The notes under the pieces are model-generated. The model made no database searches. It was not told the DNA's origin and saw only the letters and a program-made list of their open reading frames with translations. Shown piece by piece: positions 19,427-34,714 of a stretch of 37,772 nt of DNA. Source of the stretch: a virus; the IMG/VR virus record IMGVR_UViG_3300037882_002418, positions 1 through 37,772 of that record. The stretch is one strand, 5' to 3'. The position numbers and the translations under genes were made by a program. How positions within the stretch are numbered: the first letter of the stretch is position 1; each line of letters starts with the position of its first letter.

Positions 19427-19766
19427 GGCCGTAGTCGTCTCCGCCATTTTCTTTTGTGCGATCAACAACGTGTGTTTTGAGCCATATTGTTTTCTTTTGT
19501 GTTGCTGTCGTTAAAACTATTTTTATGCGAGCCCAACCAGCTTCATTAAACGTTATCAGACACGAAGTTACGCCGCTGACAAGTGTGGGTGTTCCGATGC
19601 CTGCATTGCTTGATCCATAGTTTTCCCATTCAACAGATGTGATGACCGAATTGTCATCTTGCCATGGTGTGCAATCGATTTGATAATTGACAACATCTCC
19701 GATCGAAGCGTTGTCAATGAAAGCATCGACTTTTGTACGAGTCGCAAGTACGAAGCTGACGGTCAT
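19416..19766 (-). CDS. Small Ig-like/beta protein upstream of terminase
   Basis: 116 aa. Beta-sandwich pattern: D-V-V-N-Y-Q-I, I-T-S-V-E-W, G-T-P-T-L-V-S-G-V-T-S-C-L-I-T-F, A-R-I-K-I-V-L-T-T-A-T-Q-K-K-T-I-W. Similar short Ig-like units are seen in phage head or fibre proteins. Its ATG overlaps the stop of the NusG-like gene (ATGA). No enzymatic motif. Function unknown; possibly a virion decoration protein. Confidence 0.55.
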   Translation of the reverse strand: MTVSFVLATRTKVDAFIDNASIGDVVNYQIDCTPWQDDNSVITSVEWENYGSSNAGIGTPTLVSGVTSCLITFNEAGWARIKIVLTTATQKKTIWLKTHVVDRTKENGGDDYGHGN

Positions 19767-20299
19767 TTTTGATCCTGTTTTATGGCTGCCGCAGAGCAGC
19801 CTTTTTCACAAGGTGCTCCGTTTGGGGCGATCATTCGTGTTGTTGATTGCACGATTGTATGCATGCCCAGAAGTTCGACTAAAAGTGCTACGCGCTCTTT
19901 GTTGGAATAGTGAACTATTCCACTTATACCTGAAAGCGGTCCGACTGTAAATATAATTTTTTGGCCTTTTTCATATTGCACTGGCTTAACCAAATCCTCA
20001 ACAAAACTTCCCTGATCGATTAAAGCTTCAACAAATCCTTTTGGAAGCAGCGCAGGCATTCCGCTTGCAGCTCCAAGCATTTTATAAACTCCGCGATGCG
20101 AGCTAATCGACTTCCATGCTCTGGCGTTAGCCAAATCAATTTCAACAAAAATATAACCACGGAACATTGGAACAGGAATTTTCTTTGCGTCGTTTTGCAG
20201 GGTCAGTTTTGGGCAATAGCACTTGAACCCAGATTGCTCTAAGTTCTTAATTGCATAATCTTCGCATTGAGATTTTACTTGAACGACGATCCAAGGCAT
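19763..20299 (-). CDS. NusG/RfaH-family transcription elongation (antitermination) protein
   Basis: 178 aa from the ATG at 20297-20299, which has AAAGGAACCTCA upstream; a longer frame to 20434 has no good site. N-terminal NGN domain: P-W-I-V-V-Q-V-K-S-Q-C-E-D-Y-A-I-K-N-L-E, the Y-C-P-K-L turn, then P-M-F-R-G-Y-I-F-V-E-I-D (about 44-55) and the S-S-H-R-G-V-Y-K-M-L-G signature (66-76). KOW domain about 111-147 with V-G-P-L-S-G-I-S-G-I-V. NusG-family proteins clamp RNA polymerase and suppress pausing and termination. Being first gene of the late operon, it likely drives processive late transcription through internal hairpins. Confidence 0.85.
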   Translation of the reverse strand: MPWIVVQVKSQCEDYAIKNLEQSGFKCYCPKLTLQNDAKKIPVPMFRGYIFVEIDLANARAWKSISSHRGVYKMLGAASGMPALLPKGFVEALIDQGSFVEDLVKPVQYEKGQKIIFTVGPLSGISGIVHYSNKERVALLVELLGMHTIVQSTTRMIAPNGAPCEKGCSAAAIKQDQK

Positions 20300-20320
20300 T
20301 GAGGTTCCTTTGTACAACAA

Positions 20321-20348
20321 TATATACAATAATTTTGACCAAAAACAA
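20321..20348 (-). promoter_or_regulatory. Candidate late promoter
   Basis: On the minus strand TTGTTT, 16 bases, TATATA (an alternative -10, TATATT, overlaps it with 18-base spacing). It lies about 22 bases upstream of the NusG-like ATG, giving a very short leader. Strength is uncertain because -10-like AT-rich sequences are common here. Confidence 0.4.
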
Positions 20349-20394
20349 ACAGTTAATTTTTCTAATGAAAAATAGCAAAAAGTAGCCAAAATGG

Positions 20395-20480
20395 GTCTAA
20401 GCCATTGATTTATATACATGTGCACAGCTTGCACACCAGCTGCACACCCAATTTGCAGAATGGAATCAATGGCTTAAGGC
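20395..20480. repeat. Inverted pair of the TAAGCCATTGATT box
   Basis: TAAGCCATTGATT at 20398-20410 and its exact reverse complement AATCAATGGCTTA at 20464-20476, 53 bases apart. The second arm extends as GCCTTAAGCCATTGATT on the minus strand (20464-20480). Three TGCACA hexamers lie between the arms. Suggests a dimeric regulator or a looped operator. Confidence 0.65.
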
Positions 20481-20797: not shown

Positions 20798-21088
20798 ATG
20801 ACAAAGAAAACTGATAAAAGCAGCACGGCAAAGATGCCTATTTTCGACCAGGATGTGCCCATTCCGGCGAAGGGTCGTGTCCAATTCCAGGACCCGAACC
20901 GATCTTATTTCATTGGTCAAGAGCAGTTTTCGATCAGTTTTGCCTTATCTTGTATGAAGGTCGGCGAGTCCGGACTCATGAGTAATTGGGCTACAACCTC
21001 GATCAATTATATCCAAAAGAAACTGGGTTATCGCTTCCAACGCGAGAGCCAGGTGGATGGTTCTGTTCGTGTATGGCGGATAAAATAA
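20798..21088 (+). CDS. First early gene, small phage protein of unknown function
   Basis: 96 aa. N-terminus polar (TKKTDKSSTAKMP), then V-P-I-P-A-K-G-R and a C-terminal basic segment ending S-V-R-V-W-R-I-K. The pattern V-P-x-P followed by a short domain and terminal V-R-V-W-R-I resembles a small phage family I know from many early regions, with no assigned activity. GGTAGGATCATATCACT precedes the ATG. As the first early gene it may modulate the host. Confidence 0.6.
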   Translation: MTKKTDKSSTAKMPIFDQDVPIPAKGRVQFQDPNRSYFIGQEQFSISFALSCMKVGESGLMSNWATTSINYIQKKLGYRFQRESQVDGSVRVWRIK

Positions 21089-21105
21089 GCCTTAAACCAT
21101 TGATT
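21089..21105 (+). promoter_or_regulatory. Third copy of the GCCTTAA-CCATTGATT box
   Basis: GCCTTAAACCATTGATT matches the extended minus-strand copy at 20464-20480 in 16 of 17 positions. It begins at the stop of the 96-aa gene and lies about 43 bases upstream of the -35 of the promoter at 21148, so it is well placed as an operator or activator site. Confidence 0.6.
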
Positions 21106-21129
21106 TCGTTACAATAAAATTTTTTTCAC

Positions 21130-21176
21130 TTTTTGTGCATTTTGTTGTTTACATTACTATTGATCCAGCATATATT
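21130..21176 (+). promoter_or_regulatory. Early promoter P1 with conserved upstream box
   Basis: TTTACA (21148-21153), 17-base spacer, TATATT (21171-21176): a good sigma70-type promoter. The -35 and 19 bases before it form a 25-base sequence (21130-21154, containing GTGCATTTTGTTGTTTACA) repeated exactly at 28765-28789. Drives the 69-aa gene at 21227. Confidence 0.75.
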
Positions 21177-21226
21177 GATCTTACTTAAGCAATAACGCTT
21201 ACGTATTTTAGAGATGAGAGAGAAAA

Positions 21227-21436
21227 ATGTTCGAAGGATTAAAACACTATGAACTTGTTATTGAACAAAATGGATCGAAGCAAATAAAGCTTTTTGGTTC
21301 ATGTTTTCAAAAAGGTTATACTGTCGTCGAGTCAATTCCAAGCGGCGGTAATGGAAAAGCACTTCCTTCTTTACGCAAGCAAGCAGCATCGCTCGCAAAA
21401 CGTAACAAAATCCCATTCATCGATAAAACAATTTAA
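21227..21436 (+). CDS. Small early protein
   Basis: 69 aa: an N-terminal beta region (YELVIEQNGSKQIKLFGSCF) and a basic C-terminal helix (LPSLRKQAASLAKRNKIPF). The leader AGAGATGAGAG before the ATG is shared with the 28840 gene. No family recognised. First gene behind promoter P1. Confidence 0.6.
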   Translation: MFEGLKHYELVIEQNGSKQIKLFGSCFQKGYTVVESIPSGGNGKALPSLRKQAASLAKRNKIPFIDKTI

Positions 21437-21465
21437 ACAAAACAACATAGAGATAAGAGATCAAC

Positions 21466-21639
21466 ATGACAGATTTACAAATTTCAGTTATATCTATTTT
21501 ATGCGCGACGGTTATTGCGACAACTATTTCAGCAATAATATTTATGCCATTTCTAGTTCCATCAGAAGAACAAATCAAAAATTGCATGAAGGTAACTAAC
21601 TATAGTTACGAAAGATGCGAGTGGGAGATGACAAAATGA
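21466..21639 (+). CDS. 57-aa single-span membrane protein
   Basis: Starts MTDLQISVISILCATV; hydrophobic residues 5-32 form one membrane span, followed by a polar tail with two Cys (KNC, ERCEW). ATAAGAGATCAAC precedes the ATG. Its stop overlaps the next ATG (ATGA). No family recognised. Likely an inner-membrane early protein, perhaps involved in host takeover or superinfection exclusion (inference from topology only). Confidence 0.55.
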   Translation: MTDLQISVISILCATVIATTISAIIFMPFLVPSEEQIKNCMKVTNYSYERCEWEMTK

Positions 21640-22115
21640 GTATGATCTTACGTATTAAAATTGAATATAGCGGCGAAGATAAAGTCAGAGGTTGGACAAA
21701 AGAGCAGCGTGATAGCATGCGCCAATCAATTATGGCTTTGCGTGAAATTGAAGAGCCAAAAACAGATGAATATAAGGACAAAGAAGGAAAGAATTGCTCT
21801 TATACTGTTTTTAATTTAGCAGGCGAGCATCTTGTTACAGAACAAGAAGCCGCTTGGTTAAAATCAAATGAAGTTGATTTTATAATTAAAGACTTTAAAA
21901 ATACATATAAATCGCAAAATATGTCTGACGGCAATCAATACCATTACCACCTGCCAAACATTGGGCTTCTTTTAATTAATGAAGTTACGTGGTTAGAAGA
22001 CGCTTGCACAGAAGTTTTGCAAGGAAAACTTGATGAAGGCTTCCGGATCATTGCTGTTTGTCCACCAAACGGCGCTCGTCGACCTGATTACATTTTAGGT
22101 AAAGCGAGGGATTAA
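21636..22115 (+). CDS. Early protein of unknown function
   Basis: 159 aa from the ATG at 21636 (GTGGGAG upstream, ATGA coupling to the membrane gene); an ATG at 21615 is less likely. Contains R-G-W-T-K-E-Q-R-D-S-M near the start and an acidic/basic mixed helical body, then H-L-P-N-I-G-L-L-L-I-N-E-V. Mixed alpha/beta, soluble. No catalytic motif is visible. Confidence 0.55.
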   Translation: MSMILRIKIEYSGEDKVRGWTKEQRDSMRQSIMALREIEEPKTDEYKDKEGKNCSYTVFNLAGEHLVTEQEAAWLKSNEVDFIIKDFKNTYKSQNMSDGNQYHYHLPNIGLLLINEVTWLEDACTEVLQGKLDEGFRIIAVCPPNGARRPDYILGKARD

Positions 22116-22117
22116 AC

Positions 22118-22342
22118 ATGACCGATCAATCTAAACCAAACAAGCATCGTCACCGCGGTCCTTATGACAGAGGTTCGGCAGATGCTTATTACGGACGTTC
22201 TTATTCGCCGCATTATTATGTTGATGAAAGTTTTCATGCGGCAAAAATAACGCGCGATCAAATGACGCCTGAGCAAATCGCCGAATACCGCGAAGGATAT
22301 GAACAAGAAGGAAGCAGCAAGGATTGGGGCAATGCCAATTAA
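22118..22342 (+). CDS. Small conserved phage protein (H/Y/R-rich)
   Basis: 74 aa. The R-G-S-A-D-A-Y-Y-G-R pattern and a C-terminal M-T-P-E-Q-I-A-E-Y-R-E-G-Y-E-Q motif belong to a family frequently seen in phage early regions without known function. Good GAGGG site. The gene overlaps the following HTH gene by 11 bases. Confidence 0.6.
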   Translation: MTDQSKPNKHRHRGPYDRGSADAYYGRSYSPHYYVDESFHAAKITRDQMTPEQIAEYREGYEQEGSSKDWGNAN

Positions 22343-22505
22343 AAAACTTCAAATTGAACATGAAATTTCTATATGTCTTCATTATAAAAAGGGATTAACC
22401 ATGAAGGAGTGTGGAGAGTTGTTTGGTATAACAAAGCAAGGAGTAGCCTATGTTTTAAAGAAACGTGGAGTTAAATCTCACAGCAGAGGATATAGAAGAA
22501 AATGA
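22332..22505 (+). CDS. Small helix-turn-helix DNA-binding protein
   Basis: 57 aa from the ATG at 22332, with AAGGA 8 bases upstream. Residues about 22-45 (LTMKECGELFGITKQGVAYV) form a clear HTH with a basic C-terminus (KKRGVKSHSRGYRRK). Small regulators of this shape can act on phage promoters, so it is a candidate binder of the repeated boxes in the region; which DNA it binds is unknown. Confidence 0.6.
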   Translation: MPIKKLQIEHEISICLHYKKGLTMKECGELFGITKQGVAYVLKKRGVKSHSRGYRRK

Positions 22506-22693
22506 CAATTGTGAAAGTAATATTTAAAAACAACAAATGGATTACACCTTGGGGACATGAGTTTAACACAAGGTCTGAATTGGATGCTTTTATTCTGGGT
22601 ATGAAATACATTTCGGGTTGCCTTAAGACGCATTCCGAATACTTGTTAGAGAAAGTTGATTTTAGCAAAGAGGATACAGAAAATGAAAACTAA
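22502..22693 (+). CDS. Small early protein
   Basis: 63 aa, coupled to the HTH gene (ATGA). Begins with a strand-like I-V-K-V-I-F-K-N-N-K, then T-P-W-G-H-E-F-N-T-R-S-E-L-D-A-F and a helical tail with acidic end. No family recognised. Confidence 0.5.
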   Translation: MTIVKVIFKNNKWITPWGHEFNTRSELDAFILGMKYISGCLKTHSEYLLEKVDFSKEDTENEN

Positions 22694-23048
22694 ACTAGAT
22701 AAAGTGCCAGATGAAGTTTATATTTCTAAATATTCAAAAGAATATTTTATTGAAGGTGAAATAGTTAGAACAGGAACATCTGTCACAACTTATTTTAATG
22801 GAAATTCTGTAATTGAACCTGTATACAGAAGAGCAGGTCAAACTAAAATGTATAAAAAATTCATTCGAGCAGACAGCGCCGAACCAGTGAATAAACAGAT
22901 GTTGGATGTTTTGAACAACACCGAACTAGCAAAAACACGTATTGCCAAATTAGAAGAGGCTTTGCGTTGGTACGCGGACAGCGACAATTATTGTGACGAT
23001 CAACCAATATTAAACGACTTTGGAAAAAGAGCAAAGGAAGCGTTATAA
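22683..23048 (+). CDS. Small phage protein with ALRWYAD motif
   Basis: 121 aa from the ATG at 22683 (AGAGG upstream); a start at 22656 is unlikely. The C-terminal part E-E-A-L-R-W-Y-A-D-S-D-N-Y followed by D-F-G-K-R-A-K-E-A-L is a motif seen in many phage early proteins. The N-terminal half is beta-like and basic. TAATG coupling to the 31-aa ORF. Function unknown. Confidence 0.55.
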   Translation: MKTKLDKVPDEVYISKYSKEYFIEGEIVRTGTSVTTYFNGNSVIEPVYRRAGQTKMYKKFIRADSAEPVNKQMLDVLNNTELAKTRIAKLEEALRWYADSDNYCDDQPILNDFGKRAKEAL

Positions 23049-23143
23049 TGACATTTTTAGGAGGAATGATTTTGTCAGCGCTTTTTCTAATATATCTAGA
23101 ACTGTGCAACATTAAAGAGATATTGAAAAGGAAATTAAAATGA
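23048..23143 (+). CDS. 31-aa membrane microprotein
   Basis: Reads MTFLGGMILSALFLIYLEL, then a basic tail (KEILKRKLK). One short membrane span with a basic C-terminus. Its ATG overlaps the preceding stop (TAATG) and its own stop overlaps the next ATG (ATGA), so translation is coupled on both sides. Could be a membrane modulator; no homology can be assessed at this size. Confidence 0.5.
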   Translation: MTFLGGMILSALFLIYLELCNIKEILKRKLK

Positions 23144-23457
23144 CATTCGAACATTTACATGAATATGTGTTTTTCTTAATTTTAGCGCAAGTAATAACTG
23201 TTGCTTTTATACGCGCCGCCCGATTAAGAGATGCTGAAAACGAATTGCCGCTTGACTCAGTAATTGCGCGCGTTATTTTACATGCTGGCGCAGTTGCAAT
23301 TGTCACAAACTCAATTATTTTAGGTATGGCGAACGGCTTCGTTTATTTAATTTTGTGCTATACGACTTCGCGCAATTCAGTGTATATCCATTTCTGCCTG
23401 CAAATCGTTTGGGCATGGATTGCCTGGTCGACTGTAAACCCACAAGGATCTTTTTAA
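23140..23457 (+). CDS. Polytopic membrane protein
   Basis: 105 aa with three hydrophobic segments: about residues 9-24, 43-63 and 65-96. His/Glu residues precede the first span. No catalytic motif. Coupled to both neighbours. Suggests a small inner-membrane protein of the early region, possibly blocking superinfection or altering the host membrane; the sequence does not show which. Confidence 0.55.
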   Translation: MTFEHLHEYVFFLILAQVITVAFIRAARLRDAENELPLDSVIARVILHAGAVAIVTNSIILGMANGFVYLILCYTTSRNSVYIHFCLQIVWAWIAWSTVNPQGSF

Positions 23458-23786
23458 TGTCTAAAGTATACATTACCCAATCGACGCCGCACGATCTGAC
23501 GCCCGCTATTAAGTTTGGCGAGCCGACGATCTTGCTTAAGTCAGCAAAGGATCAGACATTTGCTCCGCAGCCGGTGTTCCGTGAGCTAAAGCAAAAGCTG
23601 AAAGACTTCTCGGACCTCGACTATATATTATTGGTCGGAGATCCTGTTGCTATGGCTCTTGCTGTGAACGCAGCTGCAATGGCGAACAACGGACGGGTGA
23701 AGCTTCTTAAATGGTCAAAACGCCATGAGGGATATTTTCCAATTGAAATCGATTTATACGACAGAGGGAATTATGCCCAGCAATAA
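23457..23786 (+). CDS. Small conserved phage protein
   Basis: 109 aa from the ATG that overlaps the preceding stop (TAATG) with AAGGATC upstream. Contains Y-I-L-L-V-G-D-P-V-A-M-A-L-A-V-N-A-A-A followed by N-N-G-R-V-K-L-L-K-W, a pattern I know from phage hypothetical proteins of this size. No catalytic residues visible. An alpha/beta fold is likely. Confidence 0.55.
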   Translation: MSKVYITQSTPHDLTPAIKFGEPTILLKSAKDQTFAPQPVFRELKQKLKDFSDLDYILLVGDPVAMALAVNAAAMANNGRVKLLKWSKRHEGYFPIEIDLYDRGNYAQQ

Positions 23787-23958
23787 GAAAAAACAACCGC
23801 GGACAGATCCTCCATGCAGCTATGCTCGACTTGCTCGCACTCGCGGCATGGTACATCTCGCAGCAGAATGCGGCTGCCCTGAATGCGACAAATTATTAGG
23901 ACCACCATATACATATAAAGATAAGGAAGACGAAGACGATGCTTTTCACACACAATAG
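23773..23958 (+). CDS. Small Cys-containing protein
   Basis: 61 aa from the ATG at 23773 (AGAGGG upstream). Basic start (PSNKKKQPRTDPPC), then E-C-G-C-P-E-C-D-K, three closely spaced Cys that could form a small metal site with the earlier Cys. Acidic tail overlaps the next gene by 20 bases. No family recognised. Confidence 0.5.
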   Translation: MPSNKKKQPRTDPPCSYARLARTRGMVHLAAECGCPECDKLLGPPYTYKDKEDEDDAFHTQ

Positions 23959-24337
23959 AACTGGAGTACAATACCGAACATTGTTTAAAGCCTTTGATAC
24001 CGAGCGCCAATGCCCGTCGATTGTTTATATGCAATTGACAACAGGAGCAATTTTTGTTCGAGATGAAAAAGACTTTGACCAGAAGTTTACTCCGCTCGGA
24101 GATCCGCAGAAGAATATTATTCCGCACGATGCTGGAGCTCATGATTTGTTTAGCGCTTATATTCGATCTGTTCAGAAATTGACAGCAAGCAATATGACGC
24201 GCTACAAACATGCATTACAAATTCTAAGCGAAAATGGATGGCCAACAGTGCGCGCGGTTCCCGAGTCGCGGCGCGAGGCTTTCCTTGAAGCAGTAGAAAA
24301 ACTTGAACCCATTAACCCAGTCGTAGGAGAAGAATAA
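23939..24337 (+). CDS. Early protein of unknown function
   Basis: 132 aa. N-terminal strands (VQYRTLFKAF, YMQLTTGAIFVRDEKDF), a helical middle (HDLFSAYIRSVQKLTASNM) and a C-terminal acidic tail. Its stop overlaps the next ATG (TAATG). AAGGAAGACG precedes the ATG. No motif found. Confidence 0.5.
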   Translation: MLFTHNRTGVQYRTLFKAFDTERQCPSIVYMQLTTGAIFVRDEKDFDQKFTPLGDPQKNIIPHDAGAHDLFSAYIRSVQKLTASNMTRYKHALQILSENGWPTVRAVPESRREAFLEAVEKLEPINPVVGEE

Positions 24338-24942
24338 TGTCAAAAGAAAAACAAATGGCCGCAGTTGATGTCGCTGCACTTCAAGCTGATGCTGAAGAAC
24401 AAGCAACAAATCAAGCAGCTCGATTTGATCTAAGCGATCTTGTCAAAAAAGGCGAAGAACTCGAAGAGCTTCGTAAAAAGCTTGACGTTGCATCTAAGAT
24501 AGTTTCAAGTCTCTCGGAAGAAATACGCGTACTTGAAACCGAGACGCTGCCTGATATGTTGATGGCTCTTAAACTCAAAGATCTGACTCTTGCTTCGGGC
24601 GCCAAGATCTCGTTATTCGATGTCATCGGTGCAACCATCACTGATGAAAATCGTGAAGATGCTCATACATGGCTCCGCGAAAACGGTCACGGCGACATTA
24701 TCAAAAACAATGTGACATTGACTTTTGGTAAAGGCGAAGATCACGCAGCCACTCTTTTGATTAAGCACCTTCTCGACCTGCGGAAGAACGGTGCCACCAA
24801 ATTCGGTGACCTCGTTCAAAAAGAAGCTGTCCATCCGCAGACATTGAAGGCCTTTACAAAAGAGCAACTTGCAAGCGGAAAACCATTTCCCGGCGAGCTG
24901 TTTAAGTTGTACACTGGTCAAGCTGTTAAAATCACAAAATAA
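24337..24942 (+). CDS. Conserved phage replication-region protein
   Basis: 201 aa. Helical N-terminus with a coiled-coil stretch (KKGEELEELRKKLDVASKIV), then strands, then E-N-R-E-D-A-H-T-W-L-R-E-N-G-H-G-D-I-I-K and V-H-P-Q-T-L-K-A-F-T-K-E-Q-L, a layout seen in a widespread podovirus family just upstream of SSB-like genes, where its role is unknown. No catalytic motif. Strong TAATG coupling to the preceding gene. Confidence 0.6.
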   Translation: MSKEKQMAAVDVAALQADAEEQATNQAARFDLSDLVKKGEELEELRKKLDVASKIVSSLSEEIRVLETETLPDMLMALKLKDLTLASGAKISLFDVIGATITDENREDAHTWLRENGHGDIIKNNVTLTFGKGEDHAATLLIKHLLDLRKNGATKFGDLVQKEAVHPQTLKAFTKEQLASGKPFPGELFKLYTGQAVKITK

Positions 24943-24952
24943 GGAAGAGAAA

Positions 24953-25267
24953 ATGTCAGAACAAAACCAAACACCTGAGGTCATGATTACAGATCCAAAA
25001 CATCATGCATTTAATGATGATATATCAAAAACGATTATAAGTCATGCTCAAGCATTGCGTCCAATCGAGATGATTGCAATATTGAGTTATGCCGTCGGAG
25101 CGTTGATTTCATTGTTGCCTGATGAACTGGTTCAGAATGGAGCTGCCTTGGACCTCGTGCAGCGGAACATGGACAATGGTAATATTGACACAAACGGAAT
25201 GCTCAAACAAGTCACCTTGCTAATTGGCAAAGAAGACGAGATCCCAGAAGCTGAAGTTGTAAACTAA
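24953..25267 (+). CDS. Small helical early protein
   Basis: 104 aa from the ATG at 24953 (AAGGAAGAG upstream). Contains R-P-I-E-M-I-A-I-L-S-Y-A-V-G-A-L-I-S-L-L-P, a hydrophobic helix too short for confident membrane insertion, and an acidic C-terminus. No family recognised. A 70-base untranslated gap follows before the SSB-like gene. Confidence 0.5.
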   Translation: MSEQNQTPEVMITDPKHHAFNDDISKTIISHAQALRPIEMIAILSYAVGALISLLPDELVQNGAALDLVQRNMDNGNIDTNGMLKQVTLLIGKEDEIPEAEVVN

Positions 25268-29035: not shown

Positions 29036-29521
29036 ATGCCACGTGCAAAAAAGACTACAACTGAGAAAAAACCAAAACGCGTAAAAAAAGTTGACGAGAC
29101 AAAGGTTAAAAAACCTAAAGCTCCAAAAACTCCTAAAGCGCCTCGTAAACCAAAAGCTGAGAAGGTTGTGAAAGCAGCTAAAACTCCTAAAGCGCCTCGT
29201 AAACCAAAAGCTGAGAAGGTTGTGAAAGCAGCTAAAGAGCCAAAGGTCAACGAAAACTGGATCCCGGTCGCAGAACCAACAGACATTAATTTTGATCAAG
29301 ATTATGTTGGTGAAAAATCAGGCGCCTACATTAAGCGCTTGTTAGAAGCTAATTCACTTACAACTGAAGAAATCGTTGAAGCGGTGAAGAAAACATATCC
29401 AAAATCTAAAGTCAAAAATTCTGACGTCGGTTTTCACCGAGCAAAACTCAAAGCTGAAGGAATTGCCACTCAGGTCGTCCGCATCAGTAAAGACGGTCAA
29501 CGCTATACATTAGGCGTTTAA
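29036..29521 (+). CDS. Lysine/proline-rich histone-like protein with C-terminal helical domain
   Basis: 161 aa. Residues 1-72 are K/A/P/T-rich, like histone H1 C-terminal tails, and contain two copies of TPKAPRKPKAEKVVKAAK. The C-terminal ~85 residues have a compact helical look (G-A-Y-I-K-R-L-L-E-A-N-S-L-T-T-E-E-I-V-E-A-V), possibly a small helix-turn-helix. Good ribosome site (AAGGAGAGTAAA). Probably binds nucleic acid non-specifically; a role in compacting DNA or silencing the host is inference. Confidence 0.65.
   Translation: MPRAKKTTTEKKPKRVKKVDETKVKKPKAPKTPKAPRKPKAEKVVKAAKTPKAPRKPKAEKVVKAAKEPKVNENWIPVAEPTDINFDQDYVGEKSGAYIKRLLEANSLTTEEIVEAVKKTYPKSKVKNSDVGFHRAKLKAEGIATQVVRISKDGQRYTLGV
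29126..29236 (+). repeat. Two tandem 54-bp repeats in the histone-like gene
   Basis: 29126-29182 is identical to 29180-29236 at a period of exactly 54 bases (18 codons, frame-preserving). The identity at DNA level, including synonymous positions, shows a recent duplication that may vary in copy number between isolates. Confidence 0.9.
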
Positions 29522-29640
29522 TCGACTCGGGAACCAGAAACCCAAGAACATGATCTCGTCAAACTAAAGACGTAAACTGGGAAAATGTGACAGCTCGGAA
29601 AGACGGCGCCCATTTTAACAACAGAGAAAAGAGATTTAAC

Positions 29641-30177
29641 ATGTATAAAAACTTATCCCACAACGCTGATCTTAACTTGTCACAAAACGCTGATCTTGTC
29701 GATGACATCGCTAACTTCCACGAAAAATTTAACATTCCACAACGAACTGAAGGTCAAAAACCTGAAGCGGATTTAATGAACTTTAGACTAAAATTTTTAG
29801 CTGAAGAACTTCGCGAAGCTCAAGCTGCAGCAGCTACAACAGATCTTCCTGAATTGCTTGATGCTCTTGTTGATCTTGTCTATGTTGCAATTGGAACCGC
29901 ATACGTTCTTAATATGGATTTTAACGGAGCATGGAAAAAGGTTCAAGCCGCAAATATGGCGAAAATCTTAAGCTCTGCAGAAAATCCCAGTAAGCGCGGC
30001 TATGCTAACGATATTGTAAAGCCTGCTGGCTGGGTTGCTCCCGACCACAAAGATCTTTTTATTGAAGAAGATTTAAGTTTAAAAACTGAACCTCCAGAAA
30101 TAAAGCCTATGGCTTTTGTTCAAAGTGGTGGTTTTATTCCGCCTATACTTATTGGCGGCAGTTCGTTTAAAGAATAA
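29641..30177 (+). CDS. MazG-like / all-alpha NTP pyrophosphohydrolase
   Basis: 178 aa from the ATG at 29641 (AAGAGA upstream). Residues 46-110 hold the fold core: A-E-E-L-R-E (E55, E56, E59) followed 15 residues later by L-L-D-A-L-V-D-L-V-Y-V (D74, D78), metal-binding acidic residues of the MazG/PRA-PH/dCTPase superfamily. The start has a duplicated L-S-x-N-A-D-L-x unit. The ~65-aa C-terminal tail is not part of the fold. Likely hydrolyses a dNTP to dNMP; substrate (dUTP, dCTP or another) is not determinable. Confidence 0.7.
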   Translation: MYKNLSHNADLNLSQNADLVDDIANFHEKFNIPQRTEGQKPEADLMNFRLKFLAEELREAQAAAATTDLPELLDALVDLVYVAIGTAYVLNMDFNGAWKKVQAANMAKILSSAENPSKRGYANDIVKPAGWVAPDHKDLFIEEDLSLKTEPPEIKPMAFVQSGGFIPPILIGGSSFKE

Positions 30178-30204
30178 TAAAAAACAAAATCACGGAGAAC
30201 TAAA

Positions 30205-31230
30205 ATGCAAGGATTAATTTTATTAGATGGACCAGATTGTGCCGGCAAAACAACTTTATGCGGCAATATCATGGAAGCAGCAAAGTCTATGGGCCTGCGA
30301 GCAGTGAGTCATCATTTAGGAAAACCTGAAAAAGGACAAGCTTGGACGATGCACGCTGACGCCTTGATTTCTTATATTGAGCAGATGTTGGCAGAAAATG
30401 TCATTGTAATCGCCGATCGTCACTTTTTAAGTGAAGGGATTTATGGTCGCGGTTACCGAGACGGTAGTGAATACCCATACACAATGCTTTATATGGACAT
30501 GCTTTTTAATCGTTTTTGTGGTTTAAAAGTTATTTGCTGTCCTCCAACTGAAGTCGTTGTTGAGACACATACAAAAATGAAAAATATACGACGCGAAGAA
30601 TATGATGATGGTATGGATAAAATAGCTAAAATGTACCAAGATTTGTGGCATTCAAAAGTTTGTCCATTAGCTCTTCCAGGCGGCGATTACGTAGGACAAT
30701 TGACATCTCTTGGTGGCGTACAAGACACGCCGCGTTGGTATCATTATGATTGGACAAAAGAAAATGTTCGTGATTATGCTGAATATTTGCTTGAAGAACT
30801 CCGCATTGAACAGGCAATTGATCCAATTAAACATTTAAGACAAGCGCACTACGGTTTTAACGGAACCCCTGGAAAACATTCAATTTTATTTGTTGGCGAT
30901 GAAGCCGGCATTGGAAATTCTCTTAATATTCCATTCTTCACAAATGAAGGATCAAGTGAATTTTTAGCAAAAATACTTTTTAATTTAGGATGGCCTGCTG
31001 AAAAAACTTGCATAGCTAATGTTAATGACTATAGCGGAGTTGATACTGTAAAAACACTTTCAGCTCTTTGTAGCAAAACAATTGTCATGGGTAGAAATGC
31101 AGAGCGAACCTGTAGACTAGAAAAAATTGAATTTGATGCTTATGTCAGACATCCTCGAAACGCTCGCAAATTTAATTTAAATGATGATACGTATCATAAT
31201 CAACTTTACTATGCTATGGGAGGAAAATGA
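30205..31230 (+). CDS. Deoxynucleoside monophosphate kinase fused to a UDG-like domain
   Basis: 341 aa. Residues 1-200: P-loop kinase, G-P-D-C-A-G-K-T-T (9-17) and A-D-R-H-F-L-S-E-G-I-Y-G-R-G-Y-R (70-85), the dTMP kinase type DR motif. Residues about 225-325: S-I-L-F-V-G-D-E-A-G, S-S-E-F-L-A-K-I-L-F-N-L-G-W, C-I-A-N-V-N-D-Y, V-M-G-R-N-A, and V-R-H-P-R-N-A-R, the order of elements in family 4/5 uracil-DNA glycosylases (GEAPG, NV-K, HPS). The usual catalytic residue in the first motif is altered. Overlaps the ThyA gene by 4 bases. Confidence 0.75.
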   Translation: MQGLILLDGPDCAGKTTLCGNIMEAAKSMGLRAVSHHLGKPEKGQAWTMHADALISYIEQMLAENVIVIADRHFLSEGIYGRGYRDGSEYPYTMLYMDMLFNRFCGLKVICCPPTEVVVETHTKMKNIRREEYDDGMDKIAKMYQDLWHSKVCPLALPGGDYVGQLTSLGGVQDTPRWYHYDWTKENVRDYAEYLLEELRIEQAIDPIKHLRQAHYGFNGTPGKHSILFVGDEAGIGNSLNIPFFTNEGSSEFLAKILFNLGWPAEKTCIANVNDYSGVDTVKTLSALCSKTIVMGRNAERTCRLEKIEFDAYVRHPRNARKFNLNDDTYHNQLYYAMGGK

Positions 31231-32111
31231 TGAGTAAATTTACAACAAATCATTTTTACAATATTCTACAAGAAGTTGATGATCTTGGTGAAGAGGTTGT
31301 CAGTCGCGGGCTTAAAACACGAGAAATTTTTGGGTATAATTACAAACTTCCTCCCCGCGTTCGCTTTATGTGTTTTGACGCTCGCAAACTTAAGATGGAC
31401 TATGTGAAGCAAGAATTTTTGTGGTATCTTGTGGGCGAGCCAACAGACCATTCAATCTGCAAAGTAGCGTCTATGTGGGATGGATTAATCAATGATGACA
31501 AATCGATTAATTCAAATTACGGAGCTTATATCTTTAATCCTCACGGCGGCCACAAAGGAATAAGTAATTTTGATCGAGCAGCTCAAACTTTAAAGGACGA
31601 TCCGCAGAGTCGCAGAGCTGTAATGATGATTTTAAATTCATCGCATCTTAACTCAAAAACAAAAGACTATCCGTGCACTGTTTACATCAATTTTTTAATC
31701 CGTGAAAATCAATTGCATATTTTTGTTCGCATGCGTTCACAAGATGCGATTTTTGGTATGGGTAATGACGCTCCGTTCTTTAGTTTTGTTCATGAGCTTA
31801 TGTTCTGGACATTAAAACCTGAAATGCCAGATCTTCAACTTGGCTTTTACTACCACAGCGCAGACTCGTTTCATATCTACGAGCGCCACTATGACATGGT
31901 AAATAAAATTCTAGAAAATCCAGTTGTAACAGTAGATCATCACGACGCTTGTCCGCCAATGACTTTTATGACGCCAGTTTATATTGGAATGCTTCGTCGA
32001 GATTTGTTGTCAAAAAATCATAATTTAGACGCAGCAAGAAATGATCCTTTTGTCAAATGGTTATTGGAGCGAGAAGATCCAAACACGCTTCTCATGCCAG
32101 ACGTCAAATGA
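31227..32111 (+). CDS. ThyA-family dNMP C5-methyl/hydroxymethyltransferase, dCMP-type Asp
   Basis: 294 aa from the first of two ATGs, coupled to the kinase stop (ATGA). Catalytic Cys C150 in D-Y-P-C-T; phosphate-binding R129-R130 (S-R-R); R170-S-x-D173 (R-S-Q-D); H-S-A-D-S-F-H-I-Y-E-R-H ribose-binding segment. At the position of the Asn that selects dUMP in thymidylate synthases (8 after the RSxD Asp) this protein has D181 (G-N-D-A-P-F-F). Asp here is the known hallmark of dCMP-using members such as T4 dCMP hydroxymethylase. Substrate therefore probably dCMP; methyl versus hydroxymethyl transfer cannot be told. Confidence 0.8.
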   Translation: MMSKFTTNHFYNILQEVDDLGEEVVSRGLKTREIFGYNYKLPPRVRFMCFDARKLKMDYVKQEFLWYLVGEPTDHSICKVASMWDGLINDDKSINSNYGAYIFNPHGGHKGISNFDRAAQTLKDDPQSRRAVMMILNSSHLNSKTKDYPCTVYINFLIRENQLHIFVRMRSQDAIFGMGNDAPFFSFVHELMFWTLKPEMPDLQLGFYYHSADSFHIYERHYDMVNKILENPVVTVDHHDACPPMTFMTPVYIGMLRRDLLSKNHNLDAARNDPFVKWLLEREDPNTLLMPDVK

Positions 32112-32407
32112 TTACAGAAGATCATCTCGAAGAACTTAACGATATAATTAGGAAGACAAAAACACATGGCTGGATGCTCAACGATTTTGAAAGACTCTTT
32201 ATCCAAGACTGGGAGCAGCGACTATCAATGTCAGGAGTGTTCTGCGTCGTGTCAGACAAGCAGTCATGGGTGTTCGAAAATATCTACAGAAAACTCAGTC
32301 AGCTCGAACCGTCGCCCGAGTATCGAGGAGGTGATGCTCTCGATTGCAGGCGTTATTGCATTGAGATCGACTTGCGCAAGGCGTTCCGTCGGAGCAGTGC
32401 TTGTTGA
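32108..32407 (+). CDS. Small conserved phage protein, 3' end overlapping the deaminase
   Basis: 99 aa, ATG coupled to the ThyA stop (ATGA). H-G-W-M-L-N-D-F-E-R-L-F-I-Q-D-W, then L-S-x-x-x-x-F-C-V-V-S-D-K-Q-S-W-V-F-E-N-I-Y-R-K-L is a familiar small phage protein of unknown function. The last ~30 residues (EYRGGDALDCRRYCIEIDLR) run out of frame through deaminase coding DNA and look random, so the real ancestral end is probably near residue 70. Confidence 0.6.
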   Translation: MITEDHLEELNDIIRKTKTHGWMLNDFERLFIQDWEQRLSMSGVFCVVSDKQSWVFENIYRKLSQLEPSPEYRGGDALDCRRYCIEIDLRKAFRRSSAC

Positions 32408-32741
32408 TAAAGATAATCGCGTTTTATCAATTGGGCACAACGGACCCGCAAAAGGAATGCAGCATTGCACAGATAAACCATGCGCTGGAGCTGATTGTCC
32501 ATCTGGAACAGGACTAGATCTTTGCCAAGCAATTCACGCAGAGCAAAATGCCTTGATGTTTTGCTCAGATATTATGAAGATCGACAAATGTTTTGTGACA
32601 GTGAGCCCTTGCATTCACTGTGTTAAAATGCTTATGAACACAAGTTGCAAGACAATTATTTTTGCTAGTGAATATTCACACAATACCCAAGCGCAACAGC
32701 TTTGGGAACAAGATCCAACTCGGAAATGGGTAAAAGCATAA
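32334..32741 (+). CDS. dCMP deaminase
   Basis: 135 aa if it starts at ATG 32334. Zinc motifs H-A-E (68-70) and S-P-C-x-x-C (C93, C96), plus R-S-T-C-A-R-R-S-V-G-A-V-L-V near the start and a C-x-x-K-P-C-A-G-A-D-C-P second metal-like cluster. Family homology appears to begin a few codons earlier (R-P-S-I-E-E-V), where there is no usable start, and GAGGAGG is only 2-3 bases from the ATG or GTG. Frame extends open to 32166. Converts dCMP to dUMP; possible frameshift or fusion, see findings. Confidence 0.8.
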   Translation: MLSIAGVIALRSTCARRSVGAVLVDKDNRVLSIGHNGPAKGMQHCTDKPCAGADCPSGTGLDLCQAIHAEQNALMFCSDIMKIDKCFVTVSPCIHCVKMLMNTSCKTIIFASEYSHNTQAQQLWEQDPTRKWVKA

Positions 32742-34714
32742 TGGCTCGCTACATTAAAAATACAAACAAAAATAAAAACCAGATCCCATTGTTTGAAACT
32801 CCATCAAACTGGGTTACGCCGACAGAGCTTCCTTATGAGATATTTAATGCTCCTGTCATTGCTATTGATACGGAGACAAAAGATCCTGATCTGACAACCA
32901 AAGGCCCGTCATGGTTTCGAGGCGGCTTTGAAGTTGTTGGGATCTCGCTCGCTTGGAGCAATAAGGAGATCTATCTTCCAATTGGACATCACGGTGGCGG
33001 CAATATGGACCGCGATAATGTTATCGGTTTCCTACGTGAACTTCTGCAGAAGTTCACTGGCACGCTTGTTCTAGCCCACGCCTTCTATGATCTTGGTGCC
33101 TTAAAAATGCTTGGCATTGATATTGATTACACCCGGATAACGGTCCGTGATGTTCAGATGATTGAAGCTTTGATCGATGAACATAAAATGCGTTATAACC
33201 TTGACTCAATTGCAACGACCTATGGGCTGGCTAATAAGGACGAGCGTTTATTGCGTGAAGCCGCGGCAAATTACGGAGTCGATCCAAAATCAGAAATGTA
33301 TTTGCTCCACGCAAAATTTGTTGGAAGTTATGCGTCGCGTGATGCCTCATTGACGCTTGAAGCATATTACAAACAACTGATCCAGGTTCAATTGCAATCA
33401 CTCGAAAGAGTTATTGTTTTGGAACACGATCTTTTGCCGTTATTGCTTGAGATGCGTTGGCGCGGCGTCCGGGTCGATGTCGCAAAAGCTGAAGAACTCT
33501 ATGATCGATTTATGAAGCAAGAGCGCGAGTATGTTGCTATGATCCAAAGTTTGACTGGTCGACCAATCGACATCTGGAGCGCTGACTCTTGCGCCGTTGC
33601 TTGTGATGCAGTTGGCGTTGTTTATAAACAGACGTCAAGCGGCAAAAATTCGTTTGAAGATGAATGGTTATCAAATCACCCGCACCAAGTTCCTCAGCTT
33701 ATTTCAAAAGCCCGCAAACAATATAAAGCAGCAAATTCATTTTGTAAAGGTATGGTCCTGGATCATGCTGACAAGAACGGCTATGTCCACGCATCATTTA
33801 ATCCACTTCGATCAGATGATGGCGGAACAGTGTCTGGGCGTTTTAGTTCATCTGCTCCAAACTTACAGCAAGTCCCGGCTCGCGATCCTGAGATGAACAA
33901 CTTGATCCGCGGTTTATTTTTGCCAGAAGAAGGAGAGCTTTGGTGTGCAGCAGATTACTCGCAGCAAGAGCCGAGGCTCACGGTTCACTATGCTGTTGTG
34001 AATGGTTGTCGCAATGCTCAGGAAGCAGCAGATCAATACAATGAAAATCCAGACACTGACTATCACCAGATGGTAGCAGACTTTGCTGGGATCGGTCGAA
34101 AACCAGCCAAGACAATCAATTTAGGTTTAGCCTATGGCATGGGTGGAGCGAAGCTGGCGAGATCGCTCGGACTTCCTGTTGTGTGGAAAGAAAATAGTTA
34201 CAATGGTCGCAAATATGAAGCAGCAGGTCCTGAAGCTCAAGCAGTTCTTGACAAATATAATAACGCTGTGCCGTTTATTAAACAGCTTTCAAAGATTTAT
34301 ATGGGTCAAGCTGATGATGAAGGCTTCATCACAACATTATCAGGTCGGCGTTGTCGGTTTCCTTATTACGAGCCACGAAACGGTGGTCGAGCTCTCTTGT
34401 ATAAAGAAGCTGGTGCCCAATTTGGATTTGATAATATTAAGCGCGCTTTTACCTATTCAGCTTTGAACAGAAAAATCCAAGGCGGTTCTGCAGACATGAT
34501 TAAGATTGCGCTTCGGAATTTATATCGTGAGGGTTATATTCCAAAGGTAACAGTGCATGATGAAAATGGTTTAAGTGTCAAATCACCAACAGAAGCTCGC
34601 CACATCGCTGAGATCATGCGCGACTGCGTTCAATTAAAAGTTCCGCTGAAGGTTGACGTCGACATCGGATCTTCATGGGGAGCAGCAAAACCAATGACGG
34701 AGGACGATTTATGA
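32741..34714 (+). CDS. polA: Family A DNA polymerase with 3'-5' exonuclease
   Basis: 657 aa from the ATG coupled to the deaminase stop (TAATG). Exonuclease: D43 and E45 in I-D-T-E-T, A-H-A-F-Y-D-L-G, Y-A-S-R-D-A-S-L. Polymerase: motif A A-D-Y-S-Q-Q-E-P-R (D405), motif B R-K-P-A-K-T-I-N-L-G-L-A-Y-G, motif C V-H-D-E (D607). No 5' nuclease domain. At the position equivalent to E. coli Pol I Phe762 there is Leu461. This is the phage replicative polymerase. Confidence 0.93.
   Translation: MARYIKNTNKNKNQIPLFETPSNWVTPTELPYEIFNAPVIAIDTETKDPDLTTKGPSWFRGGFEVVGISLAWSNKEIYLPIGHHGGGNMDRDNVIGFLRELLQKFTGTLVLAHAFYDLGALKMLGIDIDYTRITVRDVQMIEALIDEHKMRYNLDSIATTYGLANKDERLLREAAANYGVDPKSEMYLLHAKFVGSYASRDASLTLEAYYKQLIQVQLQSLERVIVLEHDLLPLLLEMRWRGVRVDVAKAEELYDRFMKQEREYVAMIQSLTGRPIDIWSADSCAVACDAVGVVYKQTSSGKNSFEDEWLSNHPHQVPQLISKARKQYKAANSFCKGMVLDHADKNGYVHASFNPLRSDDGGTVSGRFSSSAPNLQQVPARDPEMNNLIRGLFLPEEGELWCAADYSQQEPRLTVHYAVVNGCRNAQEAADQYNENPDTDYHQMVADFAGIGRKPAKTINLGLAYGMGGAKLARSLGLPVVWKENSYNGRKYEAAGPEAQAVLDKYNNAVPFIKQLSKIYMGQADDEGFITTLSGRRCRFPYYEPRNGGRALLYKEAGAQFGFDNIKRAFTYSALNRKIQGGSADMIKIALRNLYREGYIPKVTVHDENGLSVKSPTEARHIAEIMRDCVQLKVPLKVDVDIGSSWGAAKPMTEDDL

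Follow-up and report, generated by a model that had tools for sequence, protein, structure and literature searches.

DNA base replacement tends to be associated with large phages, T4 being the familiar example. The T4 pathway to 5-hydroxymethylcytosine (hmC) comprises the gp56 dCTPase, the gp42 dCMP hydroxymethylase, the gp1 kinase and a dCMP deaminase. Here, we describe four adjacent genes in the IMG/VR record IMGVR_UViG_3300037882_002418, which was analyzed over its full length of 37,772 bases (“the window”). The genes encode a MazG-type nucleotide pyrophosphohydrolase, a deoxynucleoside monophosphate (dNMP) kinase, a ThyA homologue and a dCMP deaminase. We consider it very probable that the block encodes a compact, T4-like pathway to hmC precursors, with mature DNA that most likely contains plain hmC or hmC with an unrecognized decoration. 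The predicted route is complete and consistent with the residues of its central enzyme, in a podovirus with a genome of only 38 kb.

Described pathways and the four-gene block

The window shares its reaction logic with T4, and its ThyA homologue has all of the gp42 active-site marks that were tested. It differs from T4 in that the genes lie together as a single operon-like block of a 38-kb podovirus, a MazG protein replaces gp56, and a kinase with a thymidylate-kinase fold and a domain resembling uracil-DNA glycosylase (UDG) replaces gp1; no glucosyltransferase was found. The same MazG-kinase-ThyA-deaminase order occurs in the 5cmdC-type modules of Xp15, Effie, HHU4 and MD-2021a (PMC8670742), whose ThyA enzymes are 33–39% identical to that of the window and have the same signature. 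In these modules, a carbamoyltransferase of the NodU type is present and the kinase has one domain, whereas the window has no carbamoyltransferase and has the UDG fusion. Phages AXL3 (Stenotrophomonas) and PW916 (Pseudoxanthomonas), as well as ctUtU524, also encode MazG, a kinase-UDG fusion, a deaminase, and a ThyA with Asp at position 177 (D177) and Asp three residues before the catalytic Cys (“Cys-3”). They differ from the window in having an adjacent S-adenosylmethionine (SAM) methyltransferase, G-x-Y in place of S-x-Y, and a kinase only 24–26% identical to the window's. In AXL3, the four genes follow the order seen in the window. Of 37 enzymes tested on AXL3 DNA, only the two A/T-only enzymes cut it; it withstands those whose sites include G/C (PMC7504290). 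The authors annotated the AXL3 genes as thymidylate synthesis (PMC7504290); D177 and the Asp at Cys-3 suggest that the module instead hydroxymethylates cytosine. Among small marine podoviruses, S28-C10 (AP013540) and HTVC200P/HTVC119P have the kinase and ThyA genes beside those for primase and PolA, and S28-C10 has all four genes of the block. In these phages, however, the kinase has a single domain; the S28-C10 ThyA lacks the Asp at Cys-3 (i.e., is methylase-like), and the HTVC phages have no MazG or deaminase gene nearby.

MetaGPA showed that thymidylate synthase, PRA-PH and dCMP deaminase domains (PF00303, PF01503, PF00383) co-occur with carbamoyltransferase domains in contigs with modified cytosine and are statistically linked to the modification; the carbamoyltransferase was shown to act on hmdC (PMC8670742). 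A preliminary description of the window had allowed for a fully novel modification. For the core pathway this is not supported, given that the same gene set, with its statistical link to cytosine-modified DNA, is found in other phages (PMC8670742). This kind of module is already known, including from Xp15 and AXL3, and related modules occur in many uncultured phages.

As that description had stated, all four genes are present, adjacent and on the + strand; its listing of ThyA before the kinase was wrong, the true order being MazG, kinase, ThyA, deaminase:

29641-30177, +: MazG/PRA-PH-type nucleotide pyrophosphohydrolase (PF01503, E 3.1e-12; phrog_671, E 6.6e-28); alternative start possible at 29587
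30205-31230, +: dNMP kinase, thymidylate-kinase fold plus UDG-superfamily domain (phrog_761 thymidylate kinase, E 7e-12)
31227-32111, +: ThyA-family predicted dCMP 5-hydroxymethylase, 294 aa (PF00303, E 3e-25)
32334-32741, +: dCMP deaminase (PF00383, E 1.8e-15; phrog_174, E 2.6e-33); its translation contains the zinc motifs HAE and PCxxC
32741-34714, +: family A DNA polymerase, directly downstream of the deaminase (PF00476, E 1.5e-47)

The kinase gene ends 4 bases into ThyA, and the ATG of the polymerase overlaps the deaminase stop, as expected for a single transcription unit. The whole predicted hmC route spans about 3 kb of the 38-kb genome. The deaminase frame is open from 32166, and its true start is probably near 32334, although this is uncertain. 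A small open reading frame (ORF; 32108-32407, +) starts at the ThyA stop with an ATGA overlap, lies in another frame and overlaps the start of the deaminase frame; it could be a genuine gene of 99 aa, located between those for ThyA and the deaminase.

Predicted substrate and product of the ThyA homologue

An alignment compared the ThyA homologue with the thymidylate synthase (TS) of E. coli, T4 gp42, M6 ThyA, DLP4 ThyA and other phage enzymes. M6, a phage with a 5-hydroxymethyldeoxyuridine (5hmdU) pathway, provided the dUMP comparison. DLP4, a relative of the 5-methylcytosine (5mC) phage Xp12, stood in for Xp12 as the representative of the probable 5mC type. Asp at position 177 is the switch from uracil to cytosine, and the N177D substitution makes TS a dCMP methylase (PMC8670742). 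Asp at Cys-3 together with S-x-Y (T4 D145, S94 and Y96) has been proposed as a signature of hydroxymethylation, tied to the addition of water (PMC6400193). In the alignment, D181 of the window's enzyme occupies the E. coli N177 position (T4 D179), D147 lies three residues before the catalytic C150 (T4 D145 and C148), S96-x-Y98 corresponds to T4 S94 and Y96, and T151 corresponds to the Thr that follows the T4 catalytic Cys. The residues that define a T4-type dCMP 5-hydroxymethylase, i.e., Asp177 and Asp at Cys-3 with Ser-x-Tyr, are all present. The control enzymes match expectation: E. coli TS has Asp at neither position, M6 ThyA combines D at Cys-3 with N at 177, and DLP4 ThyA combines D at 177 with N at Cys-3 and has P after the Cys. 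Where an M6-type dUMP hydroxymethylase would combine Asn177 with Asp at Cys-3, the window's enzyme has Asp at both positions.

A FastTree phylogeny places the ThyA homologue in a 36-tip clade with T4 gp42 (support 0.99) that also holds ThyA enzymes linked to carbamoyltransferases and to the phrog_14998 family (see below). Its nearest relatives come from two loci of our survey, L098 and L099 (support 0.98). PDB matches include T4 dCMP hydroxymethylase (1b49, E 1.6e-15) and the CMP hydroxymethylase MilA (E 2.5e-17). L099 is a 360-kb, jumbo-phage-sized contig in which a ThyA 49% identical to that of the window adjoins a kinase; its record has no match to a carbamoyltransferase, SAM methyltransferase or phrog_14998 protein.

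Two other activities were considered for the ThyA homologue. In the first, the block would follow the usual path to thymidylate (from dCTP through dCMP, dUMP and dTMP to dTDP) and the DNA would be unmodified. The adjacency of a dCMP deaminase, a TS homologue and a thymidylate-kinase-like protein fits such a route, and the AXL3 genes were annotated in this way (PMC7504290). However, the TS signature of Asn177 and His147 is replaced by D181 and T151; D181 and D147 contradict a dUMP methylase, and the homologue scores far below the cut-offs of family-specific TS models. The thymidylate reading was rejected on the ThyA residues, and we assign it only a very small probability. In the second, the homologue would be a dCMP methylase and the DNA would carry plain 5mC, as in phage Xp12. 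D181 taken alone would also fit this activity, since N177D converts TS to a dCMP methylase (PMC8670742), and the enzyme retains the Trp that corresponds to E. coli W80 (W84). We nevertheless regard a methylase as improbable, because the Asp at Cys-3, the Thr after the Cys and S-x-Y all match gp42, whereas DLP4 has N and P at the first two positions. Moreover, an Xp12-type module would have a ThyA with Asp177 and no Asp at Cys-3, alongside DHFR; in the window, D147 is present and no match to a DHFR gene of the DLP4 kind was found, consistent with a reaction in which tetrahydrofolate is regenerated. The C-terminal tail of TS is also missing. The preliminary description had left the choice between 5-methyl and 5-hydroxymethyl open; the presence of the water-addition residues and the loss of the tail narrow it to the latter. 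Its assignment of the enzyme to cytosine is upheld by residues, tree and gene neighborhood alike. Hydroxymethyl-dCMP (hmdCMP), rather than 5-methyl-dCMP or dTMP, is strongly supported as the predicted product; the residues are direct evidence, from which we infer activity on dCMP.

In the T4-like pathway that we propose, MazG would hydrolyze dCTP to dCMP, thereby keeping plain C out of phage DNA. The protein can be aligned with its module counterparts from AXL3, Xp15, S28-C10 and DLP4, and it combines the MazG/PRA-PH fold (PF01503) with the acidic metal motif kept in MazG-type dCTPases of hmC phages; a role as dCTPase is consistent with these features. The ThyA homologue would transfer a methylene group from methylene-tetrahydrofolate to C5 of dCMP, with water completing the reaction to hmdCMP, a step for which the residues give strong support. 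The kinase would then act on hmdCMP to yield the diphosphate. In T4, hmdCTP is made by a host kinase, and the same would apply here. The adjacent family A polymerase would incorporate hmdCTP, while the deaminase would divert dCMP to dUMP/dTMP, making the C pool smaller and supplying T.

Decorating genes and the state of virion DNA

About 100 loci from IMG/VR searches (with the kinase, ThyA and polymerase) and from named phages were screened with profiles built here. The loci were chosen by similarity to one of these three proteins, meaning that counts describe the sample and not nature, and the flanks were 6–8 kb, such that distant genes can be missed. Kinase and ThyA occur together in 98 sampled loci, with the kinase directly upstream in 83 of the 98; all four genes are present in 47. 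The order of module then PolA is kept in relatives. Among tabulated ThyA sequences from fetched loci, all but four, of the M6 type, have Asp at 177. The 41-kb marine podovirus AP013540 (L016:6473-7231) has the same four-gene order and a ThyA with Asp177 but no Asp at Cys-3, and this enzyme is possibly a dCMP methylase (5mC).

Three families of candidate decorating genes recur in the sample. NodU-type carbamoyltransferases are found in 10 loci, in each of which the kinase has a single domain. In 24 loci (including L019, L020-L029, L031 and L008:3668-4489), the module contains or adjoins a gene for a class I SAM methyltransferase, which may methylate the hydroxymethyl group. Proteins of the phrog_14998 family are encoded in the flank of 32 loci and elsewhere in the record in 3 more (e.g., L080:116-1405, L035:5111-5998); they have an invariant DDW and a near-invariant GWWRxRY, and we propose the family as a candidate new hmC-decorating enzyme. 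The GSGWWRVRY motif had suggested a glycosyltransferase, but neither Pfam nor PDB profiles matched and a profile comparison with T4 beta-glucosyltransferase showed no similarity, leaving the assignment unsupported. One locus, L090, encodes a protein resembling T4 beta-glucosyltransferase. In relatives, the exchangeable phrog_14998 and SAM methyltransferase genes next to the module offer concrete candidates for cytosine decorations that would be new.

None of these three families has a match anywhere in the window, including the hmC carbamoyltransferase that defines 5cmdC systems, and the record of the best match of the kinase search, L018, likewise lacks all three. Both ends of the window carry an identical 99-bp sequence, indicating that the viral genome is probably complete and, by extension, that a gene not found in the record is probably truly missing. 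Portal, terminase, ejection and head-closure genes identify a P22-like podovirus; together with the identical ends, they confirm the 38-kb podovirus of the preliminary description, which was also correct in reporting no decorating enzyme, as no known one was found in the whole genome. The closest portals are those of the freshwater cyanophages Pan3, Pam5 and Pam1, and of CBW1004C-Prop1; at the nucleotide level, the window has no close matches to named phages.

With no known decorating gene in an apparently complete genome, mature virion DNA most likely contains plain hmC or carries an unrecognized decoration. The latter case, in which hmC would be further modified by an enzyme among the small unannotated early genes (20798-25264), is possible, although we would not favor it; it would leave the core of the proposed pathway unchanged. 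Most sampled relatives with a two-domain kinase carry a candidate decorating gene, and several of the early ORFs belong to no family; against this, those ORFs encode about 200 aa or less, and the three families are missing both genome-wide and from L018. If the DNA contains plain hmC, the phage would offer a natural setting in which to see how hmC without decoration withstands modification-dependent restriction.

Several considerations weigh against the proposed hmC pathway. It is predicted from gene sequence, in this uncultured phage as in the relatives in which no decorating gene was seen, and sequence does not reveal which substrates MazG and the kinase use. An undecorated hmC genome would be open to McrBC-type restriction. 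Finally, GAATTC does not occur in the window, with 6.6 sites expected under a maximal-order model and 16.3 from dinucleotides, as if restriction still mattered at some sites.

The kinase fusion and neighboring genes

The preliminary description had noted an extra base-binding-like domain in the kinase; it corresponds to the C-terminal third of the protein and has a UDG fold. Residues 1 to about 200 adopt the thymidylate-kinase fold, and residues about 211-341 (30835-31230) form the UDG-superfamily domain. An AlphaFold model of the whole protein has a pLDDT of 92, and the last 131 residues alone have 84.5. The whole model matches kinases in the PDB; in a Foldseek search with the C-terminal domain alone, the top 22 PDB matches are all UDGs, with family-4/UdgX enzymes scoring best (best E 1e-3, probability 1.00). 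A profile of the C-domain family matches Thermus UDG (1ui0) with E 1.3e-4. The Pfam UDG model PF03167 matches 16 of 32 family members (best 1e-8), with no match to the window's own domain alone. The fold is shared with family-4/UdgX glycosylases and with Brig1, and the pocket Phe, Asn and His-Pro are kept (F244, N272 and H316-P317). Unlike in family-4/UdgX enzymes, the catalytic motif-I loop is altered (GDEAGIGN, compared to GEGPGE in the family-4 Thermus UDG) and the domain has a nucleotide kinase as its fusion partner; glycosylase activity is putative.

The fusion occurs in 60 sampled loci. A tblastn search with the kinase gave no match at the default cut-off and only weak relatives with the E limit raised to 10. 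The UDG-like domain appears to be undescribed so far, and no published description of a kinase-UDG fusion was found in the literature searched. Brig1, a UDG-superfamily enzyme, recognizes alpha-glucosyl-hmC (PMC11078745), making it plausible by analogy that the fused domain recognizes an hmC nucleotide. The most likely, if speculative, role is recognition of a base, serving to gate specificity or to sanitize wrong nucleotides. More tentatively, and with less than even confidence, we suggest that the fusion is a new checkpoint for modified nucleotides: the domain would bind the pyrimidine, and either license only hydroxymethylated dCMP for phosphorylation or destroy wrong nucleotides (unmodified dCMP, dUMP or deaminated hmdUMP), being kept across dozens of phages while the adjoining decorating gene swaps. 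The fusion is the part of the module most likely to surprise a specialist, and it suggests an unstudied way of keeping the nucleotide pool pure. A link between the UDG domain and lack of decoration was considered and dropped, since in 50 of the 60 fusion loci a candidate decorating gene is present, within the flank or the record.

Upstream of the block lies one further gene with counterparts in related modules:

29036-29521, +: Lys/Ala/Pro-rich basic protein, 161 aa (profile from relatives, E 3.7e-7)

The profile was built from relatives only (the L080 tail, L093, AXL3/L008, L012 and L056). The C-terminal domain of the protein recurs in relatives as tails and as stand-alone basic proteins beside hmC-module genes. 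It is fused to the phrog_14998 candidate decorating protein in L080, makes up stand-alone proteins encoded upstream of the modules of AXL3 and others, and, within the hmC neighborhood, forms the tail of proteins with a PPC motif like that of DNA cytosine C5-methyltransferases (L093:4065-5420 and L057:3828-5255). An accessory role in targeting DNA would be a guess.

A NusG-like antiterminator gene (19763-20434, −; PF02357, E 6.7e-16; phrog_6386) is located at the head of the late-gene strand. Across the window, CATATG is absent, as is GAATTC, and GATC is enriched, with 240 sites observed versus 130 to 174 expected.

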